DNA from: Deltaproteobacteria bacterium
Lineage (GTDB): Bacteria > Myxococcota_C > UBA6777
NCBI GenBank assembly: GCA_002731275.1
Contig: PCBK01000104.1
Span: 44,743-108,742, forward strand
Reading direction: 5' to 3'
DNA: 64,000 nucleotides
Shown here: positions 1,546 through 64,000 of the stretch, one piece after another
How the letters are laid out: every line of letters begins with the position of its first letter
How positions within the stretch are numbered: the stretch's first letter is position 1
The notes under the pieces: model-generated
Told to the model about the DNA's origin: nothing
The model's input: only the letters and a program-made list of their open reading frames with translations
Database searches by the model: none
Made by a program: the position numbers and the translations under genes

Positions 1546-1547
1546 GC

Positions 1548-43495: not shown

Positions 43496-46400
43496 TCAAT
43501 CGCGAGATCGTCTCTTTCGATAACACACCCCAAAGAAGACCAACATCCAGAGAAGCCACTGTGCATCAGGAAGCCCCATCGAGGAAGCCGTACATCCACA
43601 ACCTGGACGGGCTCGTGGGTCATCCGGCTCACCTCCATCTGGGAATTGGCCTTCTCGGTACTTCTCTAGAGGCTCCCCGTCACAGTGAAGTGGGCCTGTC
43701 CGAAATCCCCAGACTGTCCGATCTGTCACGACCCAATGATGTTCTCCTACTGTGAACACACCCTGAATGCCTGTCGGCAATGTGACCCATTTTTTACTCT
43801 CTTTTCCGGTGAACAATTGGCCCGTTTTGTGTTTTGAGACAAAGCTCCCATCTTTCCCCTTCGTGAATGGACCCGGCACAAAGGACAACGACATCACGCT
43901 AGTCAATGCACCATCCTTCACCTGCCACAGTGCCTTGCTCTTTGCGTCGGAGATGTACAACAGATCTTCCGTGCGATCCCAGTGGAGCGCTGTGACGTCG
44001 TACGATTGAAGGTCGATGTAAGTCTTCCAGGTCCCATCTTGTCGTACATAGACAATCTTGTCTTTTCCATAGACATAGGGTCGTCCCTGTGTGTCCAAGA
44101 CGAGCTGTGTGGGGGCTGTCGTGACAAACGCTGAGGAGATCTCCTTCTTGTTTTTGAACGCTTTGAGCTGCTGTGTATCCGTCTCGATGACCCATAAGGT
44201 CCCATCTTGGATTGCGAGCGGACCTGGAGTGCCTGTGAGCTTGATGTATTCTTCGGGCTTGCCAAAGACGCCGCTCTTCAAGTCGAGAGAGAGGATCTGT
44301 TTGGTCGACGCGACAGAGACATAGAGCGTGTCGTTTGTGAAGGCTGCGCCTGTGATCGCCGCACGTGTTGGATGTTCCCACTGGGCATGACGGAGAGGGG
44401 CTTGTGTTGATGTCGTCAATTGAATGGGGAGCGTTTTGCTCACCCGAATACCTTCCCACTCTGCGGTCACTTGCACCTCCAGCTGACAACGTTGAATGTG
44501 GACCACGCCCTCAAACATCCCATCTGTCGAGACGTCGACTGTGATGCCTTCTATCTGGACGTGGGCTTTTGGTGCAGAGACCTTCCCTTTGAGGGTGAAT
44601 TGATGCTCCGTAAATTGTGCGTCCTTCTTGGGAGAGAGGATGTCCAATGAGAGCTTTGTCGACTGGACAAGCTCGAAGGAGACGATCTCCTCACTTGTGT
44701 TTCCTGCTTTGTCCCAACCTCTCACAAGTAACGTGTACTTTCCTGGTGTGTCGATCGAATCGCCCTTGTTGTAGGGGTTGCCGTTGAGTGTGTATGCCTC
44801 TCCCTTGAGATATTTGTCCGTGACTTTGATCGTCGGTGTGAAGGACGTCGTCTTGTCGCCTTCTGAGACACCATTGATGTGTATCTCCGGTGGGGTCATG
44901 TCCAACACAAAGGAACGTTTTGTCTCGGCTGTTTTGCCCCAGGCATTTTGGGCTTTGGCGTGGAGCGTGTACTCCGCTTCCTGCTCAACTGGTGAACCAC
45001 TCGCGAAGGGGAGCCCATTGAGCAGATTCGCGCTGCGATCCTTGACGATATGTACACCTGTCACGACGATCTGTGGCCACACTTTCTGGTTGTAATGCTC
45101 GCCTTCTTTGACACCTGTGATCTCGATGAGTGGCGTCGTTCCATCTGCAACACGTAGCGTATTGATGGCTCTCCCTTGGCGTTCACCTACCACAAAGGTC
45201 GCCTCAATGAGATACACACCGATCCTCGGAAGGGAGGTCTTGGAGACTGGGATCTTGATGGTCGCGAAGCCATCAACTTCGTGCTCTTTGTCGTAGATCT
45301 GTGCGCCTTCGATGGAGACACGTAAGGAGCCCTTCACTTTTTTCACACTGTGCAGCTCAACACGAAGCTCCGCGTCTTCCAATTGAAGGGCGTACTCCTG
45401 TTTGGAAGGGTGGACACCACGAACCGCAAAGTCACCCAGCTCAAACCGCGCGAGCGCACGACCCATTGGCATACTCTTGTTGCCCTTCACAAAGACCTCC
45501 GCCTGTAACACCAATCCACCTTGCGCGGTCGCAGGGGCTTTCACATCTGCGAGGACGAGATTCATGCCCTTTGTGACCTTGGTGCTGACGACGACACCTG
45601 TCTGGAGCGCGACACCTGATGACTTCAAGATGGTGTACACAATATCGACGTCGTATGTCCCACGAGCTTCGAGGATGAGTTCCGATTTGATGGTCTCTTC
45701 TGGTTGGTAGGTCTCGCGGTCGAGAGAGAGCGCCTTGGCATAGACAAAAGGCCCCTTCACGTCGAAGAAAAAGCGTCTGGTCTCCTTGCCGAACGTGACC
45801 TCGACGGTTTGTGTCCCGCCAGGGAGCACGGCTGGTAAAGCAAATGAACCTTTTTGCTCGACACCCTTTTTGAGCACATACGCTTTTTGATGGACCACTG
45901 GTTGGTGCAAGGGGATTGCCAGGACAGAGACATTCATATCGCTCGATGCACCGATGGTATAGGAGACTGTCTCTCCTGGTGAGTACACATCCTTGTCCAT
46001 CTTGAGCCACATGTCATCGTAGGCCCAATGCACAAAGATCGAGTCGATGTGGAGTGAACGCCCCTTCATGGAGAGACATTGGATCGTCATGTTGTGATGG
46101 CGTCTTTGTCCGAGAGGCATCTTCACAGTGAGGCTCTGTTTTGTCGCGGAGAGCTTCAGCGTTTTGTGTTCTTGGTGAAGACCATAGCGGATACGACATT
46201 GGATCGTCGCCTGTTGGGTCGTCCCGATAGAACGGACCTCCAATGAGAGGAGCGCGGTCTCGCCTGCTTTGTAGCTGCGTTTGTCCAATGAAGCTTTGAC
46301 GTCGATTTTGACACCTGTGACCTTGAACTTCGTCAGTCCCGCTCTGCTCGGTAAAAGTGTCGCGTCAGGGGCGCTGCTCCAGCGATGGAGCGCTGCATAG

Positions 46401-49400
46401 GTGTTCTCTTCGAGGTCATCGGGGATCGGGACCTTCAAGGTAAATGACGCCGACTGACCCGCCTTGACGGAGACCTTTTGTTGGTAGGTCTTTTCGAGGA
46501 CTTTGATCTCTATGTCGGCGATCTGGTCGAAGATTCCCTGGTTTTTAACGGTGTAGGTGAGCGTCGCGTGTGTCCCTGCGGCGAAGGCCTGTCCTGCAGC
46601 AGGTGGGATGAGCTTGAGCTGTGGGGCCGGACGGGTGAAGCTGACTTCTTGCTCTGCGCGTGTCGCCCCTGTTGTGTCGCGCAATTGGACGGACGCTGTC
46701 CGTTTGCCAACTGGTGCCATGACGAGGGGGATCGAGATGGTGTAGGTCTGTGTCTTCCCGGCAGCGACGGAGACTGGAAGGTCTGTAACAAAGAAGCCCG
46801 CGTGGATATACAGAGAGCCTTTGAATGGATCGAGACCGGCGTTGGTGACTTCTACATCGAAGACATAGGCCGTGTCTTTGCGCGCACCTGTGAGGACCTT
46901 CATGGAGATAGAGATGGGGTTGATGACCTTGAAGGTGTGCTTCACGACCACGCCGCTCCCTGGTGTCACAACGCCTGAGAGAGTGTAATTGCCTGGCGCG
47001 AGGCGAGGTTGCGTGTATGTTCCTGTCCCTTTGGTGCTGGCGTTCAGTGTGTGGGAGAAGGTCTTCTCGTCGAGCTCCCTCGTGTCATCTGAGAGAGAGA
47101 GGTACACTTCATAGTTGGCCGCGAGTGCGACGAGATTCGTGACCTCGTAGGGGATGTTGATCGGTTCATCACTGCGGAAGGTCTGCTTTGCACCCACAAA
47201 TGACAGAGAGGCTTTGGGGGCGACGATCTCGATCTGGTAGGTCTTGCTGTCACCGTATGTTTCGACCTTGATGGTGTGTGTTCCTACTGGGAGATAGAGG
47301 GCACCTTCGCCTTTGACCACCTGTGCAGGCTCGCCTTTTTGTACACCGGGCATCATGTGGCTCGTCGAGAAGGACTCTGTCACTGTCGCACTGACAGGTG
47401 TGATCGAGACGATGTATTCGCCTGCGCGCTCACCTGTGACGGAGAGTGTGTAGGGGATGCGTATCAATCCAGAGGTCGCACGTGTTGGTGGTGTCGCGGT
47501 GATCGTTGCCTTCAGGCAGAACCCTACTTGTTTGGTCACGGTTGATTGTAGATCTTGTGTGCTCGTCAATGTGAACGTCGCGTTTGACGTGACCCGTTCA
47601 TGAAAGACGAGCTCAATGGCATCACCGGCGGGGATGGTGACGGTTTGTTGTTGAGGTGTTGCGCCACCAGAGAGGGTGAGTGTCACGAGGCCTTCGACGC
47701 TGCCGTCGTTGGTGATCGTCGCACGCACGGTGAAGCTCTCAGCGTTGACACAAGAGGGCGCGCTGACCGTTATCTTGAGACCCGGCTGGAGCGTTGTGAA
47801 GGGTAATTCTAAGGTGGTCGTTGTCAGCCCGTTGGCGGTCGCAGTGATGACAAATGAGTGGTTGCCGGCTGTTTGTGGTGACCAAGAGGCTGTGAACAGA
47901 TGTTTGCTTTGTGAGGCGAGGTTGAGTTGGGTTTGGGTGCTCAAGTTGTTGCCATCGCTGTCATCGATCTTGAGTGTGATGCCCTGGATGGCTGTGGTGT
48001 TGAGATTGATGAGCGAACCTTGCAGTGTGACTTTGCCACCGACACGGACGAGTTTGACGTCGAGCTGTCCTTCGAGCTTCCAGTCTTTCGCGCCAACACT
48101 GAAGGTCGCGTTGCTTTTGGCGAGCTGAAGATTTTGGTCCGTTTTGAGGACGCCTTCGACAAAATATTGCCCTGGTTGTTTGGGCATGGGGAAGGCTTGT
48201 GTTCCATTACTTGTTTGTCCGGGCGAGACATTCACAGGGGCGACGACATGGGTAAAGAGGACCTGTCGTGTGTTGGCGATTCCTTTGCTGTCTGGTGTGG
48301 GTGTGGAGCCATCGTCTGTTTTCTCTGCGCCCTGGAGAACGAAGAGCTCACCTGTTGCGTTTCCTGCGATAATTTCGGAGAGTCCATCGCCATCGAGGTC
48401 GGCGATCACTGGTGGCATCATGCTGGAGCTATAAGACAGGATGAAGGGCGCCGTTCCATTGGCGACATCGACCATGTAGAGTTGACCTGCGAAGGGGTCG
48501 TCGTGCTTGCCTGTTTGGATCAGGAGGTCGGGTTTGTGGTCACCATTGAGGTCGGAGACACGTACACGAGCTTCCAGTCCTTGTGTGTTGGGGATGGTGC
48601 TTCTCTTTTTCACCTGTCCGGTGTGATCGTATAGGATGTACTCGATGTCGCCGTTGGATGATGTGGCTGCGAGGACGACGATCTCAAGGGTCTTGCTGTT
48701 CGATGAAGAGGGATAGACTGCGAGGCCTTCGTATTGTCCGGTGCCGATCTGTTTGGACCACTTTGTGGCACCTGTGTGACCATCCATCACGATGAGTGTG
48801 CCTGGAGTGACTGTGTCGATATAGCTCCCTGCGTAGTATCCTGTGAGGAAGATGGCCTCTTCTTTTCCGTCACCGTCGATGTCTGCGGTGATGGGTGTGG
48901 AGGAGACTTTTTGTAATGAATCGCCAGGTGTCGCGGCTTTTTGGATGAACCGAGTGGTGCCGTTGTGATTGAGCAGGCCTGCGATATCTCGTGCCGAGCC
49001 TGGATAGCTACCCGAGGTGACTGTCGCGGCGAAGGCACCATTTCCGGCGACAAGTTCGAGTTTCCCATCTTTGGTGCTGTTGGAGGTGTTGCATGTCCCT
49101 GTTGTGCAGAGGCCTCCGAGATCGGCGACGGCCAGGGGCATCGGTGGATCCCAGGAGAGAACAGACGTCCCAACAGACCACTTGACTTTGCCTGTCGCTG
49201 CGTCGAGGAGTGTGACGATGTGGTTGGAGGGGGCACCTTGAGAGGGCGGCCTCGCTGTCATCCCGATGTCTAGTTTTCCATCGTTGTCGATGTCTGCGAG
49301 CAGTGGTCGTCCGACGGCTTCACAGCCTGTACCGAGAGAGGTCGTCCAGAGGACAGCGCCTTTGCTACCTGAAAGGGCCTGAACACTACATGAGGTCGTG

Positions 49401-52400
49401 CCGATGATGACTTCGAGGCCTGGTTTTCCATCGATGTCGGCGACGGCGACGCTGCCGGCTGCGTTGACGATGGCGCGCCAGAGTCGTTTTCCATCTTTAT
49501 CGAGCGCGACGACTTCGCCAGCGTGGGAGACGGTGATGATCTCTGGTTTGTTGTCGTTGTTGATGTCTGCGACGACAGGTGCGCGTGGTGAACGATCTGT
49601 GCTCCAGTTGGTCGGTGAGATGACAGTCTGCCAGAGCTGGGCGTTGTTTTGTGGTGAGAAGAGCGCCGTTCCAAAGGATGAACCCCAACGTTTGGGGGAG
49701 CCTCTGAACATCGGCCAGGGCGCGGTGGGTGATTGTGTGGGGTAGCGGCTTTTGATGTTCTTTGTGTCGACGCGGCGCTCTTTGGAGATGGTGAGTGTGA
49801 GTGTGCTGTTTGTTATTTCACCGTTATTTGCGGTGAGTGTGTAAAGGAGCTTGCCGCTGTCTGTGGGTTGGTAATTGTTTTTGTCCGTCGAGACAGAGAG
49901 CGTGGTCTGGAGACCTGTCAGGGTGATACTCTCTTTAAACGTCTTGCGTAGCTGGTTGTTTTCTCGCAGCTCGACTGTGAGCGTGTACGTCCCGCTGGGG
50001 GTGTTGTTGGGTGGGATGAGCTGGAATGTTTTCGTATGTTTGGCAGGGAAAGCCGCGCCGCCATCGGTGTGGATGATGTATGTACCATCAGAGGAGAAGA
50101 GTGTGGCGATCCATCCGACAGTCGCGGCGGTACCACCTTCGTTTTTGACAGTGGCGATGATGGGTGTACCTGCGTTGACGCTGTTGGATTGCAGATGGAG
50201 TGTAAAGCGGGCATCTGGCAAGGAGAAGTACTGTGTCTTTTTGGTTGATTGGCCAGAGGGGAGTGTGAAGGTGGCTTCGAGTTTGTGTACGCCTGCAGGG
50301 AGTGATTTGATGGGGACAGTGAAGGTATGGGATTGGAGTGTCGCAGAGGAGAAGGTCAGTGGTTTGCTTTGTGTGAAGGACAGCGCAGGTGCAGAGAGTG
50401 TGAGTGTACCTTGTAGTGAACCGACAAAGCAGCAGAGAGGATCGACTGTGACGGAGACTTCGGCGTCTTTGCCGACTGCGAATGCGTTACCAGTGACGTA
50501 GATGGAGAGGGATGGGTCGGGGACAACGACGATGAGTGTTTGTTGTCGTGTGTCGTTGGTGCCGCCGACGTTGATCTCTGTTTGGAGTTGGAGCTGTCCG
50601 CCTTTGTGGTTGTATGGGATCTTGTATTGGATGGTGAAGGATTTTTCTTCGCCGACGTCGAGTGTTTGTTTTGTGATCTGCCCTTTTGTGAAGCCAGTCA
50701 ATTGCCATGTCGCGGAGGGGGTGAGTTGAAAGCGTCCTGTGTTTTTGAGTGTGAGTGTTCTTTGGACGTCTTCGCCGAGACGGACAGCGCGTGTGTTGGG
50801 GGTGAGTGAGATAGACATCGAAGCAGGGAGTTTGATGGAACCATCATTACGACCATCCACTGTTTCGACGTAGTATTCAAGAGTATACTCTCCAAGGGGA
50901 AGGGCATTGGGGAGAGGTTGCAAAGAGATCGTTTGTGTACTGTTTCCCTTGAAGGTCGTGATATTTTTTGTATCGGACTTTAGAACACGACCCTTTATGT
51001 CCTTGAGGGCGGCGTAGACTGTGGCATCGACATCAAGGCTTGAGAGACTTTTTAGTTCGAAGGTGATGGGGGTGCCAGGGGAGAGTTGAGCGGTGAGCTT
51101 TGGTTTGATTTGGATTGTACGACCTGCGACAAAGACGGGGTGGGTTATTTGTTGGAGCTTGAAGGTTTTGCCTCCACTCAGATCGTACAGAGATATATGA
51201 AGTGGGAGTGAACCTGTTATTCTTTTTGGGAGAGATAGAGTTGTTTTCAGTGTAAGTTTTGTGTTGTTATCGAAGGTTGTGTTGAGGGTTTTTTGGGTAA
51301 ACGTTGAGGTACAGTCCTCATTGAGTAGCTCAATCATCAACTTACCTGGAAAAGTGATCGGGATTTTTGTTGAGATATTGACTGTGAGGTTGATTTGTTC
51401 ACCTGAGTGGTAACGTAGTTTGTCCGTTTGTGGTGTGAGGGTGATGTTTGGTTCTTCCCGAACAAGAGGAATTTGAACGGATTTTGCGAATGGCCATGGG
51501 TCTACAAAGCCTGAGGCAAAGGGGGGCTTTTGTACGTTGGGAGCGTCTTTGTCGAAGGCGACGAAGGTGAGAGTTTCATTTGTAGATGAATTTGTAGGTA
51601 TGGTGAGGGTTTGTGTTTGTTTCCAACTCTTGCCTTGTGTGAGTGTCGTGGGAAGTGGTTTGTTTGGGTCTTGTACATACAGATGGAATTGGCGTGGGCC
51701 AGGAAAGAGGGGCGGCAATAGGTTTTGCAGTTCGGCAGTTAAGGTGATGGTACTTTGTCGTGGTGTGTACAAGGGGTGTTTTGTGTACAGGCGCATTTGT
51801 AAACCGGAGAGATAGCGAAGTGCAGAGAGTCTTTCTCCGAGGATAAATCGTCCTTCAGGTAATTCGATCGGGCCAACAAGTGCATTCCCTTTGCTTGAGA
51901 AGATGGTGAGTTCTGTGTGGTAAATTCCGTGCTGTGGGTTGTCGGAGTTTTTTGGAAGTGTGAGGGAGTAGCTTAACTGTGTCACATCATTAGGTGAAAG
52001 AGTTTTCGCGATTTGTTTGTGGTAAAGGATTTTGTCTCGGTTGGGTGAGAGGACTCGAATTCGTATGTGTGAGGCTTTTTGTGTGCCCTTGTACGTATAA
52101 GAGAGTTTTTGTTCAAGTTTCTTTTCAGGGGGATTGTACGTGATGGATTTGGGGTCTTGTAACCAAGTGAGCGTATCACGAATGATATCTCTGTCAGTTT
52201 GTGTGGATTGTGACCAATAGTGGCCCCAATCAGCATAGGACGTGGAGAGTACGATTGTGCCTTTGTCGTGAGGGTATACTGCGCTAATGGGGTGTCCTGT
52301 TAGGGTATGTCGTAACAAGATTGTGGCAGTTTTGGGGAGTTGTGTGAAGTAACCATCGAGGGGGATGTCCAATCTCTGGCTTGTGAGAGATGAGAGGGTT

Positions 52401-55400: not shown

Positions 55401-55402
55401 AT
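43496..55402 (-). CDS. Giant MYXO-CTERM protein with M23 peptidase-like, amidotransferase-like and FG-GAP domains
   Basis: 3,968 residues from ATG 55402 (MRKLLILFLLIYLPPTKLYA), which overlaps the upstream stop codon as ATGA; AAGGA is upstream. The track start 23 codons earlier lies inside the neighbouring gene. Residues ~205-310 match an M23/LytM metallopeptidase with both zinc motifs, HAGID and HLHFSI. Residues ~870-1090 look like a ThuA/GATase1-like fold (AHIAILDSEHAPHA, LFIPSGALGG, KQGGRLFVLS). Long runs of Ig/CARDB-like strands separate the blocks. Residues ~1900-2340 are FG-GAP/PQQ-like propeller repeats (ADINNDNKPEIITV, ADIDNDGKLDI). Further Ig-like domains (~3420-3580) and an NHL-like propeller follow. 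The end is PGCGCTASS, a hydrophobic helix and YRKRRSRD. It is probably a surface-displayed peptidoglycan-acting or adhesion machine. The M23 site looks intact. Confidence 0.9.
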   Translation of the reverse strand: MRKLLILFLLIYLPPTKLYANSSVPKWPLWSGGSILNFQHCTHGIDPKTKQLEIKNCTKEIRPKSGGLKKIEVYQLDAHKEARDWRILFEKDQNSNYDVTIYFKKRGANTWSVFMSKKSLDITNFTKNTQLDPAIFIQKTTGGTTEIPFAIPYLINKHRLAETNNWKCSNSPTSTDCLPSKYAITFSTDAATLLKTENGKQIPAMGKISDIYPSYRTYKQGLYHAGIDITAPSGTTVGAVSAGRVLSAGATSPTQLAFEEVTVLSNGLPLIYSHIRVSDFIRTSNSYPKHIKLGEITADHPRRHLHFSIQKRTQNTAGGSGIRDNSKSGRDPIGVKKNADGTYQNNTFLLNPDPYPSKKPLIISHTIVPDDYQSKQALTHKSAVSTNKSATGVLFTVKGKVDIVGQVGDPTCIFRRVCDANTKVCTEKCLDDYSGVGEAWYRIYHKNGGSASPFQWRSLYTSSEFLAGLPTKRSSPKTIPPTTIFSFAQGSKTNDLTTPNQYWLIFTNNLSPSGNVEYFSKEGSWNTNQMKLNKKLFPDDSYEIQMKVRSAFGSRDWSKTTIQKVIVDNTPPILTNAEFLGTQLANNTLIKKRGTTPSNPACIGDLLYAKLSFDQPMLSTGPQIQVLSGTLGLWTSQPLTWKLTDTLSPPLQKATLEGAFELKEFQQQTQLELNVKVSGAQGIGAFKHSKAPNAKADEMLPTTTFGKLSSTPLKFYADLQRPVITWKRQDNKVTITYHDPLTGLTSGSWQIDGGKEKYLPIKNGSCPKTPQSITITLPKDCQGKTFSFRVSARDCAGNWSDSTQQLNQQFVSFQVKLPSIACNSSKYDSRCSRTDINQTCSPKVNACIVKSVSTIRKNVPSCDNPDENVDTSTHAPRYKDAKNIDPNAHIAILDSEHAPHALKLFATFGEKAAILPRSFAPTIHKKYPILFIPSGALGGQSTNRALKAALDGYVKQGGRLFVLSQAWGKEWSVLPGNIKAKGWNEAISCFFDSSKASTEHETLSSLTSQRLDIPLDGYFTQLPKTATILLRHTLTGHPISAVYPHDKGTIVLSTSYADWGHYWSQSTQTDRDIIRDTLTWLQDPKSITYNPPEKKLEQKLSYTYKGTQKASHIRIRVLSPNRDKILYHKQIAKTLSPNDVTQLSYSLTLPKNSDNPQHGIYHTELTIFSSKGNALVGPIELPEGRFILGERLSALRYLSGLQMRLYTKHPLYTPRQSTITLTAELQNLLPPLFPGPRQFHLYVQDPNKPLPTTLTQGKSWKQTQTLTIPTNSSTNETLTFVAFDKDAPNVQKPPFASGFVDPWPFAKSVQIPLVREEPNITLTPQTDKLRYHSGEQINLTVNISTKIPITFPGKLMIELLNEDCTSTFTQKTLNTTFDNNTKLTLKTTLSLPKRITGSLPLHISLYDLSGGKTFKLQQITHPVFVAGRTIQIKPKLTAQLSPGTPITFELKSLSSLDVDATVYAALKDIKGRVLKSDTKNITTFKGNSTQTISLQPLPNALPLGEYTLEYYVETVDGRNDGSIKLPASMSISLTPNTRAVRLGEDVQRTLTLKNTGRFQLTPSATWQLTGFTKGQITKQTLDVGEEKSFTIQYKIPYNHKGGQLQLQTEINVGGTNDTRQQTLIVVVPDPSLSIYVTGNAFAVGKDAEVSVTVDPLCCFVGSLQGTLTLSAPALSFTQSKPLTFSSATLQSHTFTVPIKSLPAGVHKLEATFTLPSGQSTKKTQYFSLPDARFTLHLQSNSVNAGTPIIATVKNEGGTAATVGWIATLFSSDGTYIIHTDGGAAFPAKHTKTFQLIPPNNTPSGTYTLTVELRENNQLRKTFKESITLTGLQTTLSVSTDKNNYQPTDSGKLLYTLTANNGEITNSTLTLTISKERRVDTKNIKSRYPTQSPTAPWPMFRGSPKRWGSSFGTALFSPQNNAQLWQTVISPTNWSTDRSPRAPVVADINNDNKPEIITVSHAGEVVALDKDGKRLWRAIVNAAGSVAVADIDGKPGLEVIIGTTSCSVQALSGSKGAVLWTTSLGTGCEAVGRPLLADIDNDGKLDIGMTARPPSQGAPSNHIVTLLDAATGKVKWSVGTSVLSWDPPMPLAVADLGGLCTTGTCNTSNSTKDGKLELVAGNGAFAATVTSGSYPGSARDIAGLLNHNGTTRFIQKAATPGDSLQKVSSTPITADIDGDGKEEAIFLTGYYAGSYIDTVTPGTLIVMDGHTGATKWSKQIGTGQYEGLAVYPSSSNSKTLEIVVLAATSSNGDIEYILYDHTGQVKKRSTIPNTQGLEARVRVSDLNGDHKPDLLIQTGKHDDPFAGQLYMVDVANGTAPFILSYSSSMMPPVIADLDGDGLSEIIAGNATGELFVLQGAEKTDDGSTPTPDSKGIANTRQVLFTHVVAPVNVSPGQTSNGTQAFPMPKQPGQYFVEGVLKTDQNLQLAKSNATFSVGAKDWKLEGQLDVKLVRVGGKVTLQGSLINLNTTAIQGITLKIDDSDGNNLSTQTQLNLASQSKHLFTASWSPQTAGNHSFVITATANGLTTTTLELPFTTLQPGLKITVSAPSCVNAESFTVRATITNDGSVEGLVTLTLSGGATPQQQTVTIPAGDAIELVFHERVTSNATFTLTSTQDLQSTVTKQVGFCLKATITATPPTRATSGLIRIPYTLSVTGERAGEYIVSITPVSATVTESFSTSHMMPGVQKGEPAQVVKGEGALYLPVGTHTIKVETYGDSKTYQIEIVAPKASLSFVGAKQTFRSDEPINIPYEVTNLVALAANYEVYLSLSDDTRELDEKTFSHTLNASTKGTGTYTQPRLAPGNYTLSGVVTPGSGVVVKHTFKVINPISISMKVLTGARKDTAYVFDVEVTNAGLDPFKGSLYIHAGFFVTDLPVSVAAGKTQTYTISIPLVMAPVGKRTASVQLRDTTGATRAEQEVSFTRPAPQLKLIPPAAGQAFAAGTHATLTYTVKNQGIFDQIADIEIKVLEKTYQQKVSVKAGQSASFTLKVPIPDDLEENTYAALHRWSSAPDATLLPSRAGLTKFKVTGVKIDVKASLDKRSYKAGETALLSLEVRSIGTTQQATIQCRIRYGLHQEHKTLKLSATKQSLTVKMPLGQRRHHNMTIQCLSMKGRSLHIDSIFVHWAYDDMWLKMDKDVYSPGETVSYTIGASSDMNVSVLAIPLHQPVVHQKAYVLKKGVEQKGSFALPAVLPGGTQTVEVTFGKETRRFFFDVKGPFVYAKALSLDRETYQPEETIKSELILEARGTYDVDIVYTILKSSGVALQTGVVVSTKVTKGMNLVLADVKAPATAQGGLVLQAEVFVKGNKSMPMGRALARFELGDFAVRGVHPSKQEYALQLEDAELRVELHSVKKVKGSLRVSIEGAQIYDKEHEVDGFATIKIPVSKTSLPRIGVYLIEATFVVGERQGRAINTLRVADGTTPLIEITGVKEGEHYNQKVWPQIVVTGVHIVKDRSANLLNGLPFASGSPVEQEAEYTLHAKAQNAWGKTAETKRSFVLDMTPPEIHINGVSEGDKTTSFTPTIKVTDKYLKGEAYTLNGNPYNKGDSIDTPGKYTLLVRGWDKAGNTSEEIVSFELVQSTKLSLDILSPKKDAQFTEHQFTLKGKVSAPKAHVQIEGITVDVSTDGMFEGVVHIQRCQLEVQVTAEWEGIRVSKTLPIQLTTSTQAPLRHAQWEHPTRAAITGAAFTNDTLYVSVASTKQILSLDLKSGVFGKPEEYIKLTGTPGPLAIQDGTLWVIETDTQQLKAFKNKKEISSAFVTTAPTQLVLDTQGRPYVYGKDKIVYVRQDGTWKTYIDLQSYDVTALHWDRTEDLLYISDAKSKALWQVKDGALTSVMSLSFVPGPFTKGKDGSFVSKHKTGQLFTGKESKKWVTLPTGIQGVFTVGEHHWVVTDRTVWGFRTGPLHCDGEPLEKYREGQFPDGGEPDDPRARPGCGCTASSMGLPDAQWLLWMLVFFGVCYRKRRSRD

Positions 55403-57531
55403 CTGTTTGTCCTTTTCTTTTTGAGCATTCTCAAAAGGGCTTTGTCTATATAGTTTTGCATTTTGTTCCACTTTGGAGCCTGTCGGAGTTGTCTCAGAAG
55501 AGAGATAACTTTCTTGCCTCCGATGCCACTGAGGGCACTTATGCTTGCTCTTTTTTGTTGAGCGCTTGATTTTGGATCATTTAAGATCCTAATAAGATCT
55601 GGTGTTGCAGGCTTTGCTTTTTCATCAAAGTAACACAGGAGCCAAGCTGCATCGGCTTTATGCTTGGGGTATTGCAATAAAGATATTATGTTTGGAATGG
55701 ATGAATGAGTCAAGGCGGGAGCTCCTGGAGTTTGGACGATTTTATTGAATATTGAGATTGTAGTTTGTCGAATACGCGTATTGGGATGGGTGAAAAACTG
55801 AGAGAGGAAAAAAGCATGTTTGATTAAGAAGTTTCTCGATATTGGATTCACGTGTAAACTTTTTAGCTGCTTTGTCAAAAGCGGGGATGTGGATATCTTC
55901 CTTTTCAAGAAACTTCCCAAGTCTACTGAGTGAAGTATTGCCTTCAGAAGGATGTACTTTCCGAGAACGCCTGCTTGTGGTAGTTTGGCTAGTATTTGCT
56001 CTCGATATTTGGGAAAGGCTGCTGTGAAGTCTGAGAGTGTGTATATCATTGGGAATAGAATGTATTCAATGATATGATCGCTGTGAGATTTGCGAATGTC
56101 ATTTCCCGAAATCAATTGTTTGGACAGGTTTTGAAAGTTTGCGTACTTTGTTCTATTGTTGAAGAGTTTGCTCAATAAATGGGGGCTTACTTTTGATTTC
56201 CACAAGACATAGTTAAGCAAGTATTTGTATACATACAAAGAGGGCCATTTTAATTTTTCATCTGACATCATTTTTTTGAACTCAGGCAAGTACTTTTTGG
56301 GATGTTTGAAGATGAGAAGTGCAATCAGTTCTCCCAATGAACGAAAGGAATTCGTTGCTTTCTTTTTCGTCTTATTGAGCTTTTCTATGTCTGAGTCATA
56401 TGCTCGGAGCATTTTGATGGATTCAGAGAGCAACATATTCGGATATTTCTTGGATAGATCTTGCATGACAATTTTGCGTACAAAGCTGGATATGTAGGGT
56501 CTTTCAGAGAATGTTTGGAGCAAGGGGATAACATACTCTTTTGGGAATGGTGGCTTGAATTTGAAAATCTCTTTAAGTGCCATTCGTCTGTAGTGTGTAT
56601 TTTTTTCTTTTTGTGCTTCTATCAAGAGCATCTTTCTTTGCTTTTCATGTGTTTTTGTTTTCATCCTTACGAGTGAGAAGGTTGTCCAATACCGGGTGTT
56701 TTTGTTTTTATGATGAAGTAGAGTCTTCATGTGCTTCATTGCTTGTTCTGGAATGTTTGCTAGTGTCAGCGCTGCATAACGCTTTAAATAGTCTTCTATG
56801 TATGGCAAGGTTTTTTTTGTCATTGCTTTAAGTGCAAGTGGTAGAAGCATTTTGTTTGTCTTGTCTGTTTTGGAACTCACTAGAAGTAGCGTCGTTGTTG
56901 CTGCGAATGGTGGTTTCCACTTATTGCTAACCAGTTTTTTTTCGAAAGCTTTCAACATATGAGGGGTCGATGATTTTGCGTAGGAGCCGAGAAATCCAAA
57001 CAAGATTGCGAGATTCATTTTATCATAGTTTATTTGTTCGTATAGCTTGCGGTCTGGTGGCTTTTTTGTAAACATTGCAAGTAGAGTTGGGTAAATCTTC
57101 TTGAGCAAGGGGATATTCTTTTGCCTGACCAGACTTTCTAGCGTCATATACTGATATGACTTGTGTTTTAGGAGTTGAACGACAGCTTGTGGGTTGTTGA
57201 GCTTTATATTGTAGATGATTGCTCTCAGCTTTGAAAAGTCATTTGAGAACTTTTTACAAGTGGGGCAATACTTTAAAATGATTGGGATCAAGCACTTTCC
57301 TTCTTGATCCATCTGTGCGAGCTTTGCTGCTTGGGATCGAGAGCTTGCTAAAGCCTTCTTGAACGCACGTTGAAGCAAGTTCTTCCTTGCAGGGGTGCAT
57401 TGTGTTTGAGTTGTTCTTGTTTTGAGGTGTTTTGGAGTGACACAACAAGTTCCAATAAGAGCAGTCAAACCTAGTGCCAGCATCCAAGTGAGACGGCTCC
57501 ATGTTGGTTTGCTTTTTACTTGTTTCTCCAT
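55399..57531 (-). CDS. HEAT-like repeat exported protein A, coupled to the giant gene
   Basis: 710 residues. A hydrophobic signal sequence ends in LIGTCC, a possible but atypical lipobox. The mature protein is almost entirely alpha-helical pairs in HEAT style (PEQAMKHMKTLLHHKNKNTRYW, KPPFPKEYVIPLLQTF, HPNTRIRQTTISIFNKIV, AKPATPDLIRILNDPKSS). A Cys pair motif near the start (QEGKCLIPIILKYC) recurs in protein B. The C-terminus (LRQAPKWNKMQNYIDKALLRM) also resembles that of B. It is driven by the duplicated promoter at 57635-57663, and its stop codon overlaps the giant gene's start (ATGA), so the two are translationally coupled. It probably binds or stabilises the giant protein outside the cytoplasm. 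Function is unknown. Confidence 0.78.
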   Translation of the reverse strand: MEKQVKSKPTWSRLTWMLALGLTALIGTCCVTPKHLKTRTTQTQCTPARKNLLQRAFKKALASSRSQAAKLAQMDQEGKCLIPIILKYCPTCKKFSNDFSKLRAIIYNIKLNNPQAVVQLLKHKSYQYMTLESLVRQKNIPLLKKIYPTLLAMFTKKPPDRKLYEQINYDKMNLAILFGFLGSYAKSSTPHMLKAFEKKLVSNKWKPPFAATTTLLLVSSKTDKTNKMLLPLALKAMTKKTLPYIEDYLKRYAALTLANIPEQAMKHMKTLLHHKNKNTRYWTTFSLVRMKTKTHEKQRKMLLIEAQKEKNTHYRRMALKEIFKFKPPFPKEYVIPLLQTFSERPYISSFVRKIVMQDLSKKYPNMLLSESIKMLRAYDSDIEKLNKTKKKATNSFRSLGELIALLIFKHPKKYLPEFKKMMSDEKLKWPSLYVYKYLLNYVLWKSKVSPHLLSKLFNNRTKYANFQNLSKQLISGNDIRKSHSDHIIEYILFPMIYTLSDFTAAFPKYREQILAKLPQAGVLGKYILLKAILHSVDLGSFLKRKISTSPLLTKQLKSLHVNPISRNFLIKHAFFLSQFFTHPNTRIRQTTISIFNKIVQTPGAPALTHSSIPNIISLLQYPKHKADAAWLLCYFDEKAKPATPDLIRILNDPKSSAQQKRASISALSGIGGKKVISLLRQLRQAPKWNKMQNYIDKALLRMLKKKRTNR

Positions 57532-57590
57532 TTATCTCCATACTCCTTGTTTTTGATAGGTTCTATCTCTTTTGAAATAGAATCGCTTGG

Positions 57591-57677
57591 TTGTAAACGG
57601 CTCTTTTTCAACCCAGGCCGTGTATGATTTTACGAGTATACTCAACATCTTCTTTTCCTGCAACGCCTTTTTTATGC
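57591..57677 (-). repeat. 87-bp duplicated promoter/leader, copy 1
   Basis: Almost identical to 60099-60185 (one visible difference, tcttttcctg versus tctttttctg). It carries TTGCAG (57658-57663), a 17-bp spacer and TATACT (57635-57640) on the minus strand, plus a leader with GTTTAC and an ACGGC/GCCGT pairing. The -10 is inside the palindrome GAGTATACTC. Transcription would start near 57628 and give a leader of about 97 bases for HEAT protein A. Confidence 0.85.
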
Positions 57678-57776
57678 GGCTTCTGTTTCCGTTCTGTCCG
57701 ATGTTTACTCTTCTCGTGTTCTCCTTCCATTTTTATCTTCAAACTTTCCATCTTGCGCTCAAACTCTCTTTCTTCG

Positions 57777-57938
57777 ATCCTTCAAAATAAAACCCTATCA
57801 ACCAAGCAAACATCTCTTTTCTGCTTCCCAATCAATTCCTTTCAAACCATGCGTCCAGAATTTCCGCCGAGGAAATTCTATCCAAGAAAACCGCGAGGTT
57901 TTCAAGGGGGATGCAACGCCCTGCGTTGCTATGTGGAG
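57777..57938. repeat. ~160-bp triple-hairpin repeat, copy 1
   Basis: Three hairpins in a row on the plus strand: GAATTTCC-GCCGA-GGAAATTC (57858-57878), GAAAACC-GCGA-GGTTTTC (57886-57903) and GCAACGC-CCT-GCGTTGC (57913-57929). The same repeat is at 63727-63886. It lies just after the 3' end of HEAT gene B (stop codon at 57966) and upstream of HEAT gene A's promoter. No coding potential is evident; a transcribed structured RNA or a mobile REP-type element are both possible. Confidence 0.75.
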
Positions 57939-57965
57939 TGAAAAAACAGAATGTAAGGGCTGTTG

Positions 57966-60077
57966 TCATTTTCCTCTTTGCTTTATTTGTTGGAGTGTTG
58001 ATTGTAGCTCTCTCTTCCATGGAGACCATTTTTTTTCTCTTTGTAACCTTTGCAACAAGGGGATGTCGTTCCTTCTTGCAAGTTTGCCAATGACAATTAA
58101 AAACACTGTTCTTTTCTGTGGGGCTGACGGCTTTAGTAACTCGTCAAAGATAGCCTGCAAAAAATCAGAGGACCTTTTTGGATATCGTGACAATACAGCC
58201 GCAGCTCTTGTCTTAATATGTAGAGCTGGATGTGATAATTGATGGCGAATCAAAGGAATAGACTTCTTGCTGCGTGGAGCAATTCTTTTGAATAACCCAA
58301 GGGTCATAAATTTCACACGAGGGTCTTTTTGTTGAAGAAGCTTATGAAAGATGGGAGTGTTTTTTACGAGCAACGGAACGGAGAGCTTCTTCAAGGAGTT
58401 TGTGAGTACCTTCAAAAGGAAACGTTGTTTTTTGATGTTCATTGCTTGATGACCAAGCATTGAAATGATAAGACCCTGAAATTCTTGTGAGTGTTGTGTT
58501 ATCGAGGAGTAAAGGAAGAGCCTATCCATAAATTTCTTACTTACTTTCACTTGAATGAGTTGACCCACTTCACTTTTTACAAATGCCATGAGTTGAGGTG
58601 CTGCTTTGATTTCTTCTTTGTTGACGTTTTGAATGGAGTGAAGAAAGATGTACTTTCCCTTTTGGGATGAAGTGAAGAGTTTGTACAGGATTGGAAAGAA
58701 CTTTTTTCTGTTTTCCTGTAAAAGGTTTGTTAATGTGCTGCAGAGTGAGTATTTACAATCTTCCTCTGTCACTGCTGAAGGCTCTGTATGTAGTGCTTTT
58801 AGGGCAAGCTTACATACGAGGTTTGGTGCTCTTTTTTGCAGCAGATCCAGTCTAAGGACTTTCAGGTATTGTATCCTGTACCAACGTTGTTTTTTTTGAA
58901 AAAGCTGTGAGCGATTGTATAAATGCATGAGAGGTCTCAGCAATTTTTTTGTAGGTCTTCTTTCACTTGTGAGTCCATACCAGGCCAAAGCACGTATTTT
59001 TTTTACTTTGTCAATCAACCCTAAAAGAAGAATCTTTTGCCTTTCACTCTCGTGTGCTTCGGACTTTGTGACATTTTCTATCACACTGTATCGCAATGGT
59101 TTGCATTGGCTCTTCATGAATCGAGCATAGTGTGTATAGGCTTCTTTTCCAGCCCGAGTCAGAGCCAATAATGCGATCGCTGAGAGTCTATGTTGATTTC
59201 CATCCCTGTGTGAGCTGGGTGGGGAGGGGACTGAGTGGAATTGACATTTTTCGATAATGTGGGCCAAAAATGAGGTTACCTTTTTGTTTTCTGCTCCAAT
59301 TGCAGCACAGATGTTTATGAGAGTTTCAAAGTATCTGGTGTTGCTGTGTTGTTCTTTTTTCGCCAATGACAAGATGAAGGGTGCCACTTGTTTTGCCTGA
59401 AGCTCTAGCTTCATTAGGATATACCCAATGTTCGAACGGATAGATTCGACTTTGTGCTTTCTGAATTGATGTTCCCACTTCATTTTGATGAGTGAAGATA
59501 GTATCGGTATGATTGTGTCAAACTGAGCTTCGCTCAACTTGCATTGCATCAACTCAGGAGATTGTTTTGTCATATAGTTTATCAATTTTTCCATACGACT
59601 TCCTTTAAACCAAGAGGCCGCGGTACGTTTTTTCCAGTAAACAACTCCCGCACACTTTTGTAAGAGAAGGAGGGTTCCATCTACCCATAGTTTAGAATAT
59701 CGAGGTCGTAGCAGTATTGCTACGGTTGTGGCATACTTTGGTTGTAAGTGGATGATGAGCTTTTTGAAAAGTCGATGCTCTCTCTCTTTTTGAGGGTTAT
59801 ATGAGCTAAGTAGAACGGGGACTAAACATCCTCCCTCTGAATCAAGTTTTCGAAGTTGATTCAGGTGAAATTTTCTTCTCTTTCTTGTTGCTCGAAGAAA
59901 TCTCTGAATTTCTTTCTGGATGTTTTTTTGCCTTCGAAGTGAACAATGGAGAGCAGGCTTGATTTTTTTGGGGATACTCACCTTTTTTCCACTTGCAGAG
60001 CTACTGAAGCAAACAAGGTATGCAAAGAGAAGACTTCCAATACATTTCCAGACAAAAGAGTATGTTTTTTTTCTCAT
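57966..60077 (-). CDS. HEAT-like repeat exported protein B
   Basis: 703 residues with a signal peptide (WKCIGSLLFAYLVCFSSSASG). The mature protein is helical repeat throughout (HSNTRYFETLINICAAIGAE, KEIQRFLRATRKRRKFHLNQ, DPRVKFMTLGLFKRIAPRS, SHPALHIKTRAAAVLSRYPK). It shares motifs with protein A: LDSEGGCLVPVLL near the start and IPLLQRLQREKKWSPWKREL at the end, so the two are paralogues. ATG 60077 is 66 bases downstream of the -10 of the duplicated promoter. The gene is rich in Lys and Ser and visibly AT-richer than the first half of the window. Role unknown; like A it should lie outside the cytoplasm. Confidence 0.78.
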   Translation of the reverse strand: MRKKTYSFVWKCIGSLLFAYLVCFSSSASGKKVSIPKKIKPALHCSLRRQKNIQKEIQRFLRATRKRRKFHLNQLRKLDSEGGCLVPVLLSSYNPQKEREHRLFKKLIIHLQPKYATTVAILLRPRYSKLWVDGTLLLLQKCAGVVYWKKRTAASWFKGSRMEKLINYMTKQSPELMQCKLSEAQFDTIIPILSSLIKMKWEHQFRKHKVESIRSNIGYILMKLELQAKQVAPFILSLAKKEQHSNTRYFETLINICAAIGAENKKVTSFLAHIIEKCQFHSVPSPPSSHRDGNQHRLSAIALLALTRAGKEAYTHYARFMKSQCKPLRYSVIENVTKSEAHESERQKILLLGLIDKVKKIRALAWYGLTSERRPTKKLLRPLMHLYNRSQLFQKKQRWYRIQYLKVLRLDLLQKRAPNLVCKLALKALHTEPSAVTEEDCKYSLCSTLTNLLQENRKKFFPILYKLFTSSQKGKYIFLHSIQNVNKEEIKAAPQLMAFVKSEVGQLIQVKVSKKFMDRLFLYSSITQHSQEFQGLIISMLGHQAMNIKKQRFLLKVLTNSLKKLSVPLLVKNTPIFHKLLQQKDPRVKFMTLGLFKRIAPRSKKSIPLIRHQLSHPALHIKTRAAAVLSRYPKRSSDFLQAIFDELLKPSAPQKRTVFLIVIGKLARRNDIPLLQRLQREKKWSPWKRELQSTLQQIKQRGK

Positions 60078-60098
60078 CCCTTATTTCTCCTTTGTATG

Positions 60099-60185
60099 TT
60101 GTAAACGGCTCTTTTTCAACCCAGGCCGTGTATGATTTTACGAGTATACTCAACATCTTCTTTTTCTGCAACGCCTTTTTTATGT
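60099..60185 (-). repeat. 87-bp duplicated promoter/leader, copy 2
   Basis: TTGCAG (60166-60171), 17 bp and TATACT (60143-60148), with the same leader as copy 1; start near 60136 gives a leader of about 59 bases for HEAT gene B. It occupies almost all of the short gap between HEAT genes C and B. Confidence 0.85.
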
Positions 60186-60223
60186 GGCAAATGAACAACA
60201 AAAGATGAATGTAGATGCCGGAA

Positions 60224-63200
60224 TCATTGTCTTCTCCGTAGAGGTTGAATGGTTCTCTTTGTTATGGTCACTACGTTTTTATGTGAACTTCGTAAAAGCA
60301 TTTTGTATAATTTGAGTGAGGATTCAAATAGGCCGAAGTGTGTGATTGTGCTCTGAAGGGAATGTGCAAAATAAAGTTGTTCCCGCTCTCGTTGGGCAAG
60401 AACGTGTTTTCCCACTAAGTGATCAATAGATGTAATGATTTCATAAAAGGTGTGTTTTTGTTTTTGTGATAATAGACAGTGTATTTTTTGAGAAAGGTAA
60501 AATCGAAGAAGGGAGTATATGATGGAGAAGAACGAGTCGGAAGGCTGATGTTTTTTTGCGAGCTGCATTCGGATTTCTTTCAACAACAAATTAAAATTGT
60601 CTTGTGCAATAAAAGAACAAGAGGTCTTTTTCGTCACCTGTATGAGAGAGCTAGATAAACGAAGACGTGAGACCGTTGTTAATATCCAGAATCCGTGAAG
60701 GGTGATAGTTTTCAAATGGCTGCGTCCGAGCTCTGAAAGAAAAAGAAGTACAAGTTGTTTTTGTAAAATGCCGTTGGTGGAAAAGCTCGATGTTGAGCTT
60801 GTTGCAGAGGAGGATATTTGCTCGAAGAAGTGCGTGGGAAGTTCAGTTTTGTATTTTACATAGAGTTGCAACGTTTGCTTTTGGATGTTTTTTTTATAAA
60901 AAGACAATGCAAAGAGTGTGTCTAAAGAGCGACTTCTGATGTGGCGAGTCAACATACGATTCTCGACAATCAAGAAGAGTTTACGTTGCAGAAGAGGAAG
61001 TGTGGAGAATAGCTGTCTTGTAAAGGAAGCCGCGAGAGAATGCTTTTGCTGAAGGCTTGATTTCAAGAAGAAGAGTAGTCTCTTCAATGTGGCCTCAGAG
61101 TATTTTAATGGGTTGGATAGCATCTTGAAGGCATTGGACTTGACATGAAGATAGTAACCATTCATGATATATATGGTGACAAGCACTTTCCAGATTTCAG
61201 ACCTAGAGCCTTTTATGTATTCGAGATTTTCGGTGTGAGGGTGTTCAAAAAAACGGATAAGGACTTGTTCTAGTCGTTGGAGTATCTGGTTCAGTTTTGA
61301 ATTTTGTGTGCTGGGAGGAAGTTCTGTATTTCTTGGGCAAAGCTTTGATACGTTTGAATCAGAAGTTTTTTGACGTATAGCACAGAGGTTTTGTTGCGTG
61401 ATAGATAGAGTTCTCAGAATCATTGGTTTCAAGAGCGTCGTTGAGCAATATAGTTGAACGATGTTCTTAAGAAAGCTGCATTTGTTTTGAATAAGGATGT
61501 GTTTGATTGACCTGAGGATGAGTTTATCAAGGGCTGGAGGTGTTTTCTTGAGCTGTTGGTTCATGAGCTTGACTTGAGCGCTCAGTATTTTTGAGCGATG
61601 CTTGGGATGATATGTATGCAGATGCTCAAAGATTTTTAGGATGTAGTATTTCGTATTGATGTTTTCCGTAGAAAGATACTTTTTCATCAATGATGGAATG
61701 ATCTGAACACCAAATTCTTGCAAAGCATTCATTGCTATTTCGGGGATCGGAAGATTGCTGGTGAAAAATCTGTGTAAAAATAAATCATGTCGTTCAAGGT
61801 GCTGAATAAGAATAGGTATTGCATTTTTTAGTTTCAGCTTTCCGAAGAGGTAGAGGACTGCTGAAGCTGTTTGTGAATAATTGGGACTGTTCTTTGACAA
61901 CTCTATTGTTTTGAGAAGTTCGGGGTATGGGTTATGGTTGTGGCTCATTCTGATGAACTGCTTTAGAACTTTGGTGTTTCCTAAGGCTCCTTTTTTCAAG
62001 CAAATACTCAGTGCTGCAAGAGCGGGCTCTTTTAACTTCTGCAATATGCGAAGGAGAGCTGTCTCTTGGCAAAGAGCCCGATGTTTTGTTTGCAGGAGTT
62101 TCTTGATGATTGGCAGAAGAAACGTGTTTCTTCTGTTTGGTGAGGTGTTGTTAAATAGAATTTTTATGATCTGTACATAGTCTGTTGCAGGCCTTGGGAT
62201 AGACATGCGGGTGGTTTGTGCATGAGGGTTCCCTCGTTCAAATAGTATTCGTTTGAACAGGGGAAGAAATTCTGGTGAGTAAAGGTTCAAACATTTAAGC
62301 AGGTGGAGTGCTTTGGAAAGAACCTGTGTATCCGCATGGTTTTTCTGCAGAACTTTTTGAAAGAAAAGTCTCATTTGGGGACGTTTTAAAGACGTCCATA
62401 GAAAAAGACACTTGCAAGTTAAGGTATGACCAATGCTGTATGTGTTGTTGGCTTTTAAAACTGCTAGGGAAATTTGGGAGTATTTTTTACTCACTCTGAA
62501 TAGATATTCTCCAAGCTCACGAGAGTCACATTTGATGTATCCTTTTGCAATAGAGCGTTGAACTGTTTTGAATAACGTAAGCTGAAGATGTTTCGGTAGG
62601 TTCTTTGTTAGAAGAAGTGCTGTGTGGGCGGCTGGGCCAGAGAGTAGTTTTTTTAGGACATGAACGTCTAGATAGAGGTCTTTGAATTTTTTGCGTAGGA
62701 TTCTCATAAACTGTCGGGTGCAAAGAGAAGATGTCGCTGTTTTTGTGTGAGAGTGGACTAGATGTAATGAGAATGTGAAGAGAGATTCGTTTCTGGGCAA
62801 AATAAAGTGATTAAAGAATGAGGCAAACTCCGGATGCGGAGTGCAGGTTTTGTCTGAAATGATTGGGTATATTGCTTTTAATAGTTTGCGTTTGCTCCGA
62901 AAGAAAACGGTGGATTTTTGCAACAAAAGAATTTTGCATTGGGACTTTGTACTGCCAAAGCAAGGTGAGTTTGGGGATGCCAAGTACTCGAAGATAGGAG
63001 ACGCCTTCTCTCCAAAGGCGACGATGACGGGGAATATCTGAAGAATGATATGCTCGCTTGTTTCAGCTCGGATTTTTTTTGAAAGCAACGATAGTAAATG
63101 TTCGTTTGTATCGCGTGTAAGGAATTTTCTGAGAATTGTTCTTGTGCTGGGATTGTTGTTTGTTGTAAATAGGTTTTCTAAAGCTTGCTGTTCGCAAGTT

Positions 63201-63553
63201 TTTGTTGTGCTTCCTGAAGGTAGAGTTTTTTTCAGGAGTTCAGAATATTTCTTGTGTACCGGAAGGGGCATAGTCTTTAAAAGGATACGAGAGATACAAG
63301 AGGAAACTTGCTGTTTGTACTTTTGTTGTGGAGGAGCTTTCTTTCTTTTTCCCATACATGCTGCATTCATTGCAAAAAGCAAGGCAAGATAAATGAACAG
63401 TATGAGCTTCTTCTGCTTGAATGTACGAGTTGTTCTTTGTTGAAGAGAGATTTTCAAAAAAGTTGAGAGTTTTACAACAGTTTCAAACAACATTTGTTGC
63501 TGGGCTGGTTTCGCGAGGACTCCTTTCTTTTTGTTTTTTTTTGATACGTTCAT
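60224..63553 (-). CDS. HEAT-like repeat exported protein C (long)
   Basis: 1,109 residues. GGAAGGA lies six bases upstream of the ATG at 63553, giving an unusually long polar N-region (~50 residues) before the hydrophobic stretch LILFIYLALLFAMNAACMG, whose NAAC end is a possible lipobox. The rest is alpha-helical repeats (PVIVAFGEKASPIFEYLASP, RFMRI-like pairs, KLKLKNAIPILIQHLERHD, NINTKYYILKIFEHLHTY, FEQISSSATS). It is longer than A and B, and its similarity to them is lower, so paralogy is likely but not certain. It is the first gene of the cluster in transcription order and has its own TATACT-type promoter. The end of the gene touches the promoter of B with only 38 bases between. Function unknown. 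Confidence 0.75.
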   Translation of the reverse strand: MNVSKKNKKKGVLAKPAQQQMLFETVVKLSTFLKISLQQRTTRTFKQKKLILFIYLALLFAMNAACMGKRKKAPPQQKYKQQVSSCISRILLKTMPLPVHKKYSELLKKTLPSGSTTKTCEQQALENLFTTNNNPSTRTILRKFLTRDTNEHLLSLLSKKIRAETSEHIILQIFPVIVAFGEKASPIFEYLASPNSPCFGSTKSQCKILLLQKSTVFFRSKRKLLKAIYPIISDKTCTPHPEFASFFNHFILPRNESLFTFSLHLVHSHTKTATSSLCTRQFMRILRKKFKDLYLDVHVLKKLLSGPAAHTALLLTKNLPKHLQLTLFKTVQRSIAKGYIKCDSRELGEYLFRVSKKYSQISLAVLKANNTYSIGHTLTCKCLFLWTSLKRPQMRLFFQKVLQKNHADTQVLSKALHLLKCLNLYSPEFLPLFKRILFERGNPHAQTTRMSIPRPATDYVQIIKILFNNTSPNRRNTFLLPIIKKLLQTKHRALCQETALLRILQKLKEPALAALSICLKKGALGNTKVLKQFIRMSHNHNPYPELLKTIELSKNSPNYSQTASAVLYLFGKLKLKNAIPILIQHLERHDLFLHRFFTSNLPIPEIAMNALQEFGVQIIPSLMKKYLSTENINTKYYILKIFEHLHTYHPKHRSKILSAQVKLMNQQLKKTPPALDKLILRSIKHILIQNKCSFLKNIVQLYCSTTLLKPMILRTLSITQQNLCAIRQKTSDSNVSKLCPRNTELPPSTQNSKLNQILQRLEQVLIRFFEHPHTENLEYIKGSRSEIWKVLVTIYIMNGYYLHVKSNAFKMLSNPLKYSEATLKRLLFFLKSSLQQKHSLAASFTRQLFSTLPLLQRKLFLIVENRMLTRHIRSRSLDTLFALSFYKKNIQKQTLQLYVKYKTELPTHFFEQISSSATSSTSSFSTNGILQKQLVLLFLSELGRSHLKTITLHGFWILTTVSRLRLSSSLIQVTKKTSCSFIAQDNFNLLLKEIRMQLAKKHQPSDSFFSIIYSLLRFYLSQKIHCLLSQKQKHTFYEIITSIDHLVGKHVLAQREREQLYFAHSLQSTITHFGLFESSLKLYKMLLRSSHKNVVTITKRTIQPLRRRQ

Positions 63554-63619
63554 CTTTGATCCTTCCCTATGTGCATAGTAAACAGTTTTTCTAAGCCCAA
63601 GCCATGGGGGATGTGAAAG

Positions 63620-63648
63620 AGTATACTCAACTTCTCATACGGACGCAA
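63620..63648 (-). promoter_or_regulatory. Promoter of HEAT gene C
   Basis: TTGCGT (63643-63648), 17 bp and TATACT (63620-63625) on the minus strand; the -10 again lies in GAGTATACTC-like symmetry and the spacer ends in GTTGAG as in copies 1 and 2. The flanking leader is diverged but keeps GTTTAC. Transcription would start near 63613. Confidence 0.75.
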
Positions 63649-63726
63649 TCCTCTTTCTTCCTTTTCTTTCACCTTTTGTTCTTCTCCAGGCATTCAGGCT
63701 TTTTTCTCCAAAACCCAAATCCAACA

Positions 63727-63886
63727 TCCTTGAAAATAAACCCCTATCAACCAAGCAAACATCTCTTTTCTTCTTTCCAATCAATTCTTTTCAAACCATG
63801 CGTCCAGAATTTCCGTTTAGGAAATTCTATCCAAGAAAAACGGAGTTTTTCAAGGGGGATGCAACGCCCTGCGTTGCTATGTGGAG
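63727..63886. repeat. ~160-bp triple-hairpin repeat, copy 2
   Basis: GAATTTCC-GTTTA-GGAAATTC (63807-63827), GAAAAAC-GGA-GTTTTTC (63835-63851) and GCAACGC-CCT-GCGTTGC (63861-63877). Compared with copy 1, hairpin 1 differs only in the loop, hairpin 2 has one paired C-G to A-T stem change and a loop change, and hairpin 3 is identical. Confidence 0.75.
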
Positions 63887-64000
63887 TTGGGCATCAGAAT
63901 AAAAAGGACCGCTCTTGATGGATTCCAGGGTCTTACCTGACAAGGACTTGTATTAACGATGAGAGTAAAGCTTTTCCTCTTCGTCGTGTATTGTGTACAT

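Follow-up and report, generated by a model that had tools for sequence, protein, structure and literature searches.

The window, that is, the whole 64-kb stretch of DNA that was analysed, contains at 43496-63553 a row of four ORFs on the minus strand, with 1109, 703, 710, and 3991 codons, the first three coding for basic proteins with a hydrophobic leader (H1, H2, and H3) and the last for a giant multidomain protein. The locus raises the question of whether these genes work together, and what they might do. The reading preferred here, to which we give a probability of roughly 0.4, is that of a small co-regulated gene set that would serve one giant M23 protein, anchored in the outer membrane and accompanied by helical partners that are expressed with it and reside in the periplasm.

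Gene layout and the shared promoter

The ORF list and the translations bear out the four consecutive genes claimed in the preliminary description, together with the length of 3968 residues given there for the giant, which holds when counted from the ATG in the H3 stop overlap, and the overlap between the last of the HEAT-like genes and the giant gene. This overlap is 4 nt long: H3 ends in ...AGATGA, and the ATG of this sequence is the start codon of the giant. Such an ATGA overlap is a typical sign of translational coupling. Upstream, the contig end coincides with the window edge, 447 nt from H1; downstream of the giant, the next gene (40319-43237) encodes a secreted protein of 972 aa that has Ig-like repeats in tandem as well as an SBBP propeller and resembles Leptospira LipL53-family lipoproteins. 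A very basic VIT/VWA/PEGA/TPR protein (pI 10.9) is encoded at 1548-4892. The features of the locus are collected in Table 1.

Table 1. Positions of the genes, upstream elements, and domains of the locus, ordered in the direction of transcription
Feature	Position	Strand	Remarks
Dispersed intergenic repeat	63726..63907	-	upstream of H1
H1 promoter	63620..63648	-	TTGCGT-N17-TATACT
H1 5' leader	63554..63619	-	shared element (GGCyTGGGyT...GTTTAC)
H1	60224..63553	-	1109 aa, internal hydrophobic leader (residues ~48-67), pI 10.3, no family match
H2 promoter	60143..60171	-	TTGCAG-N17-TATACT
H2 5' leader	60078..60142	-	shared element
H2	57966..60077	-	703-aa secreted helical protein, H3 paralog, HEAT_2 below cutoff, pI 10.5
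Dispersed intergenic repeat	57777..57959	-	upstream of H3, not a specific promoter
H3 (and giant) promoter	57635..57663	-	TTGCAG-N17-TATACT
H3 5' leader	57532..57634	-	shared element
H3	55399..57531	-	710-aa exported HEAT-repeat protein, HEAT_2 35.6 bits, pI 10.2
Giant	43496..55402	-	multidomain, 3968 aa from the ATG overlapping the H3 stop (ATGA)
M23 peptidase domain	54461..54736	-	residues 246-337 of the 3991-codon frame; H247, D251, H329 (zinc), H297, H327 (catalytic)
Possible amidotransferase-like (DUF4159-like) domain	52142..52804	-	candidate
FG-GAP/PQQ beta-propeller	48272..49699	-	
A2M bait-region-like segment	45914..46297	-	24.9 bits (cutoff 22.7)
Two tandem OmpL47/Y_Y_Y-like Ig repeats	44669..45175	-	
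Second propeller-like repeat region	43652..44374	-	assigned by eye
Divergent MYXO-CTERM anchor	43499..43624	-	GCGC, hydrophobic stretch, RKRR

The regions upstream of H1, H2, and H3 can be aligned, and consist of TTGCnn-N17-TATACT followed by a leader that contains GGCyTGGGyT and GTTTAC. The promoter and leader that had been proposed as common to the HEAT-like genes are thereby confirmed and sharpened, as TTG-N20-TATAHT occurs on the minus strand of the window three times, once before each helical gene, and does not precede the giant. The shared element is a predicted locus-specific sigma-70-like promoter with its 5' leader. Since the giant has no separate promoter of this kind and shares 4 nt with H3, it is probably translationally coupled to H3; co-expression of the helical genes and the giant is supported by the promoter common to the former and by the H3/giant overlap.

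Other regulatory roles were considered and rejected. Across the 10.75-Mb genome there are six copies of the 12-mer TTGAGTATACTC, and the three outside the locus all lack the leader, which dismisses the palindrome GAGTATACTC as a genome-wide operator. Likewise, the leader found no Rfam match as a structured RNA, with a folding energy that is ordinary for H1 and H2 and moderately low for H3 (z = -2.3). The dispersed repeat located further upstream has a core of ~54-140 nt that includes GCAACGCAGGGCGTTGC, and about 27 further matches across the genome, many copies being near contig ends; it was discarded as a HEAT-specific promoter because its copies adjoin unrelated genes (e.g., a purE-like gene, named by inspection), and, being dispersed genome-wide, it is not to be counted as promoter evidence.

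The helical proteins

H3 exceeds the cutoff of the Pfam HEAT_2 model (27.7 bits), H2 stays below it with 16.9 bits, and H1 matches neither HEAT nor any other Pfam family. H2 and H3 can be aligned end to end with 24% identity and a score about 17 standard deviations above that of shuffled sequences (z = 16.9), which identifies them as diverged paralogs, while the global alignment of H1 gives no signal with H2 (z = 0.3) and at best a weak one with H3 (z = 1.5). Judged from their sequences, H2 and H3 are therefore related, with clear HEAT repeats in H3 only. Of the three HEAT-like proteins announced in the preliminary description, H3 stands and H2 is retained as its sub-threshold paralog, but H1 is not: its helical character was an impression of that description, and its assignment as HEAT-like is not supported. 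The single-sequence structure model of H3 is all-helical, with a confidence (pLDDT 49) too poor for interpretation, and a fold search with this model returned generic HEAT solenoids only, with low TM. The 91-nt promoter/leader copies of H3 (57590-57680) and H2 (60098-60188) are 98% identical, and this value, compared to that of the proteins, suggests recent copying or strong constraint.

All three proteins are extremely basic (pI 10.2-10.5), and their translations start with a hydrophobic leader, which in H2 resembles a normal signal peptide by inspection. In H1 and H3 the leader is followed by a cysteine in a poor lipobox (NAAC, GTCC), and a motif search for [LVI][ASTVI][GAS]C at the leader end of both gave no match, so that their status as lipoproteins is uncertain. 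The leaders mark the helical proteins as exported, as would be expected if the gene set remodelled the wall of its own cell, for example when it divides or sporulates, with the HEAT proteins activating M23 in the way that EnvC and NlpD, which are activators of amidases, do with their partners. Indeed, Gram-negative M23-type proteins often act on their own wall. However, the MYXO-CTERM tail would direct the giant to the outer surface, away from its own periplasmic wall, and this explanation is regarded as very improbable.

Homologs of the helical proteins are scarce. H3 retrieved only itself from its own genome, four phylum relatives, GTDB r220, and plasmids, H1 retrieved only itself from its own genome, and H2 found only weak HEAT-type matches (E ≥ 0.006) in the phylum comparison set of five genomes, namely its own and the four relatives. 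Searches of defence and phage libraries yielded nothing specific. As H1-H3 have no convincing homologs, what links them to the giant is that they adjoin it in a single genome, and the helical genes might be functionally unrelated to it, forming a co-regulated, AT-rich, lineage-specific family that happens to read into the giant. Their GC content of 0.39-0.40 agrees with this idea, as does the fact that each has its own promoter, so that no long operon is needed; nevertheless, both the ATGA overlap and the lack of a separate copy of the shared promoter before the giant oppose it, and we hold it to be unlikely.

The giant protein and its anchor

At its N-terminus, the giant has a signal peptide and then an M23 domain. 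A possible amidotransferase-like domain follows, flanked on both sides by Ig-like segments, and after these an FG-GAP/PQQ propeller. The C-terminal part has further Ig-like and A2M-like segments, two OmpL47-like repeats, and a second region of propeller type before the MYXO-CTERM-like tail; some of the boundaries were set by inspection. The M23-like zinc site (HAGID, HLHF) reported beforehand is borne out by the motifs HAGID, YSHI, and HLHF, at 247, 295, and 327, and by the Pfam score of the excised domain (31.5 bits, cutoff 28.7), which falls below the cutoff (26.5 bits) when the whole protein is searched. The five functional residues, which we assign to the lysostaphin/zoocin sites partly from knowledge of the family, are all present and most of them align with zoocin A; the turn that precedes HLHF is divergent. 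The N-terminal end of the giant thus likely carries a wall-cutting enzyme domain of the M23 type. M23 domains can also be inactive regulators. A known wall-binding domain such as SH3b was not found in the giant. The amidotransferase-like domain is possible, its DUF4159 score (15.2 bits) being below the cutoff of 25.9 and its structure model unusable (pLDDT 37).

Further along the chain, the propeller repeats noticed at the outset are recovered by FG-GAP/PQQ with 69 bits, and a search of the giant for the alpha-2-macroglobulin thioester motif C[GL]EQ gave no match. The C-terminal tail, GCGCTASS...WLLWMLVFFGVCYRKRR, is tripartite, with a Cys signature, a hydrophobic helix, and a basic cluster. 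The TIGR03901 model for MYXO-CTERM does not match it even at E ≤ 1, and a model built from the MYXO-CTERM tails of the same genome does, with 26.7 bits; together with the tripartite structure, this match supports the surface anchor claimed for the giant. At least 30 MYXO-CTERM proteins of the genome are above cutoff, and their true number is probably higher because divergent tails like that of the giant escape the model. A 2182-aa Ig-rich surface protein encoded at 15292-21840 has a MYXO-CTERM tail above the TIGR03901 cutoff.

An alignment-based GTDB scan with the giant found one ortholog and four propeller-only matches, the latter in two Deltaproteobacteria MAGs, a Herpetosiphonaceae MAG, and an Anaerolineae MAG. 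The ortholog, from a Myxococcales MAG (JALTMC010000117), is collinear with residues ~1486-3970 (the C-terminal 2,480) at 35% identity and keeps the motif GCGCxASS, which indicates that stalk and anchor are under selection. The N-terminal third, which bears the M23 domain, found weak M23 matches in two genomes and no convincing homolog when compared with the four relatives at E ≤ 10, and one 100-residue M23-region match, from Paenibacillus, among plasmids.

One alternative is that the giant serves adhesion or recognition, as other surface proteins of the MYXO-CTERM class do; the conserved propeller and Ig stalk would then do the work, and M23 would be a lineage-specific or degenerate appendage. 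The limitation of the known conservation to the C-terminal two thirds fits this explanation, as do the divergent turn before HLHF and the low GC content of the N-terminal part (0.39-0.48 vs 0.52-0.57, within a rise from 0.39 to 0.57 along the gene). Yet the five M23 residues are intact, and the contig of the ortholog (7.6 kb, 1.58x coverage, with nothing else on it and the gene running off both ends) stops exactly at the N-terminal boundary, so that the missing third may be an assembly gap. Furthermore, the step in GC content falls near residue 1600, within the portion shared with the ortholog, and so speaks against a simple fusion at this point. We consider this alternative rather doubtful, if the most credible of those weighed against the anchored M23 giant.

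Proposed working of the gene set and known systems

According to the preferred reading of an anchored M23 giant with helical partners, H1, H2, and H3 would each be transcribed from their own copy of the sigma-70-like promoter and leader, while the giant would be exported by Sec and retained by its MYXO-CTERM tail. If TraA is a guide, the cysteine of this tail would then be lipidated, the helix removed by myxosortase, and the protein carried to the cell surface by the type II system. The Ig-like, A2M-like, and propeller segments would form a long stalk with putative binding sites, and the M23 domain at the distal tip may cut peptide cross-links of the peptidoglycan, most likely that of a neighbouring or prey cell. 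The helical proteins, made alongside the giant, would stay in the periplasm, where H2 and H3, as exported basic alpha-solenoids, might be scaffolds or partners of the giant or of its substrate.

Several sequence features speak for this reading: the complete M23 site and the score of the excised domain, the fit of the tail to the MYXO-CTERM set of the genome, the conservation of stalk and anchor in the ortholog, the occurrence of the common promoter and leader at exactly three sites, and the ATGA overlap. Against it, none of the four relatives has a convincing counterpart of the N-terminal third, and thus of the M23 enzyme; 430 kDa is very large for a type II substrate; the M23 domain might be an inactive regulator, and the amidotransferase-like fold is only a candidate. 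A bolder version seems quite unlikely. It would be a dedicated machine for cutting walls on contact, in which the M23 giant, anchored in the outer membrane on a 0.4-MDa stalk, owes its export or arming to two HEAT paralogs in the periplasm and to a third helical partner, with a single type of promoter and leader for the whole set.

If the link between the genes holds, the locus would encode a very large surface-anchored peptidoglycan hydrolase together with solenoid partners dedicated to it, in a myxobacterium-like lineage of which few members have been sampled. It would also offer a testable example of wall attack on contact that is distinct from killing by Tad, T3SS-like, and T6SS machineries. 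Even without this link, the giant appears to be a conserved surface protein missed by the standard MYXO-CTERM model, so that surface-protein counts for the lineage are likely too low.

Among known systems, the HEAT-repeat alpha-solenoids (Pfam HEAT_2) resemble H3 in its score above cutoff and its low-confidence all-helical model; the proteins described here differ in being exported, unusually basic (pI >10), and without a close homolog, with H2 sub-threshold and H1 unmatched. Like the M23 peptidoglycan endopeptidases zoocin A, lysostaphin, and DipM, the giant has HxxxD, the catalytic H, and HxH, whereas its M23 domain is part of a giant anchored protein and has a divergent turn before HLHF. 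MYXO-CTERM proteins are exported by Sec and anchored through their C-terminal helix; their Cys is predicted to be lipidated, and they are cleaved by myxosortase and brought to the surface by the type II system (PMC11980579). With those sorted by myxosortase, such as TraA of Myxococcus xanthus, the giant shares the Sec leader, the long extracellular part, GCGC, the hydrophobic helix, and the Arg-rich tail. It departs from the TraA type in its much larger size, its N-terminal M23 domain, a tail too divergent for TIGR03901, and the adjoining helical genes, and is best read as a variant within the known MYXO-CTERM class of surface proteins.
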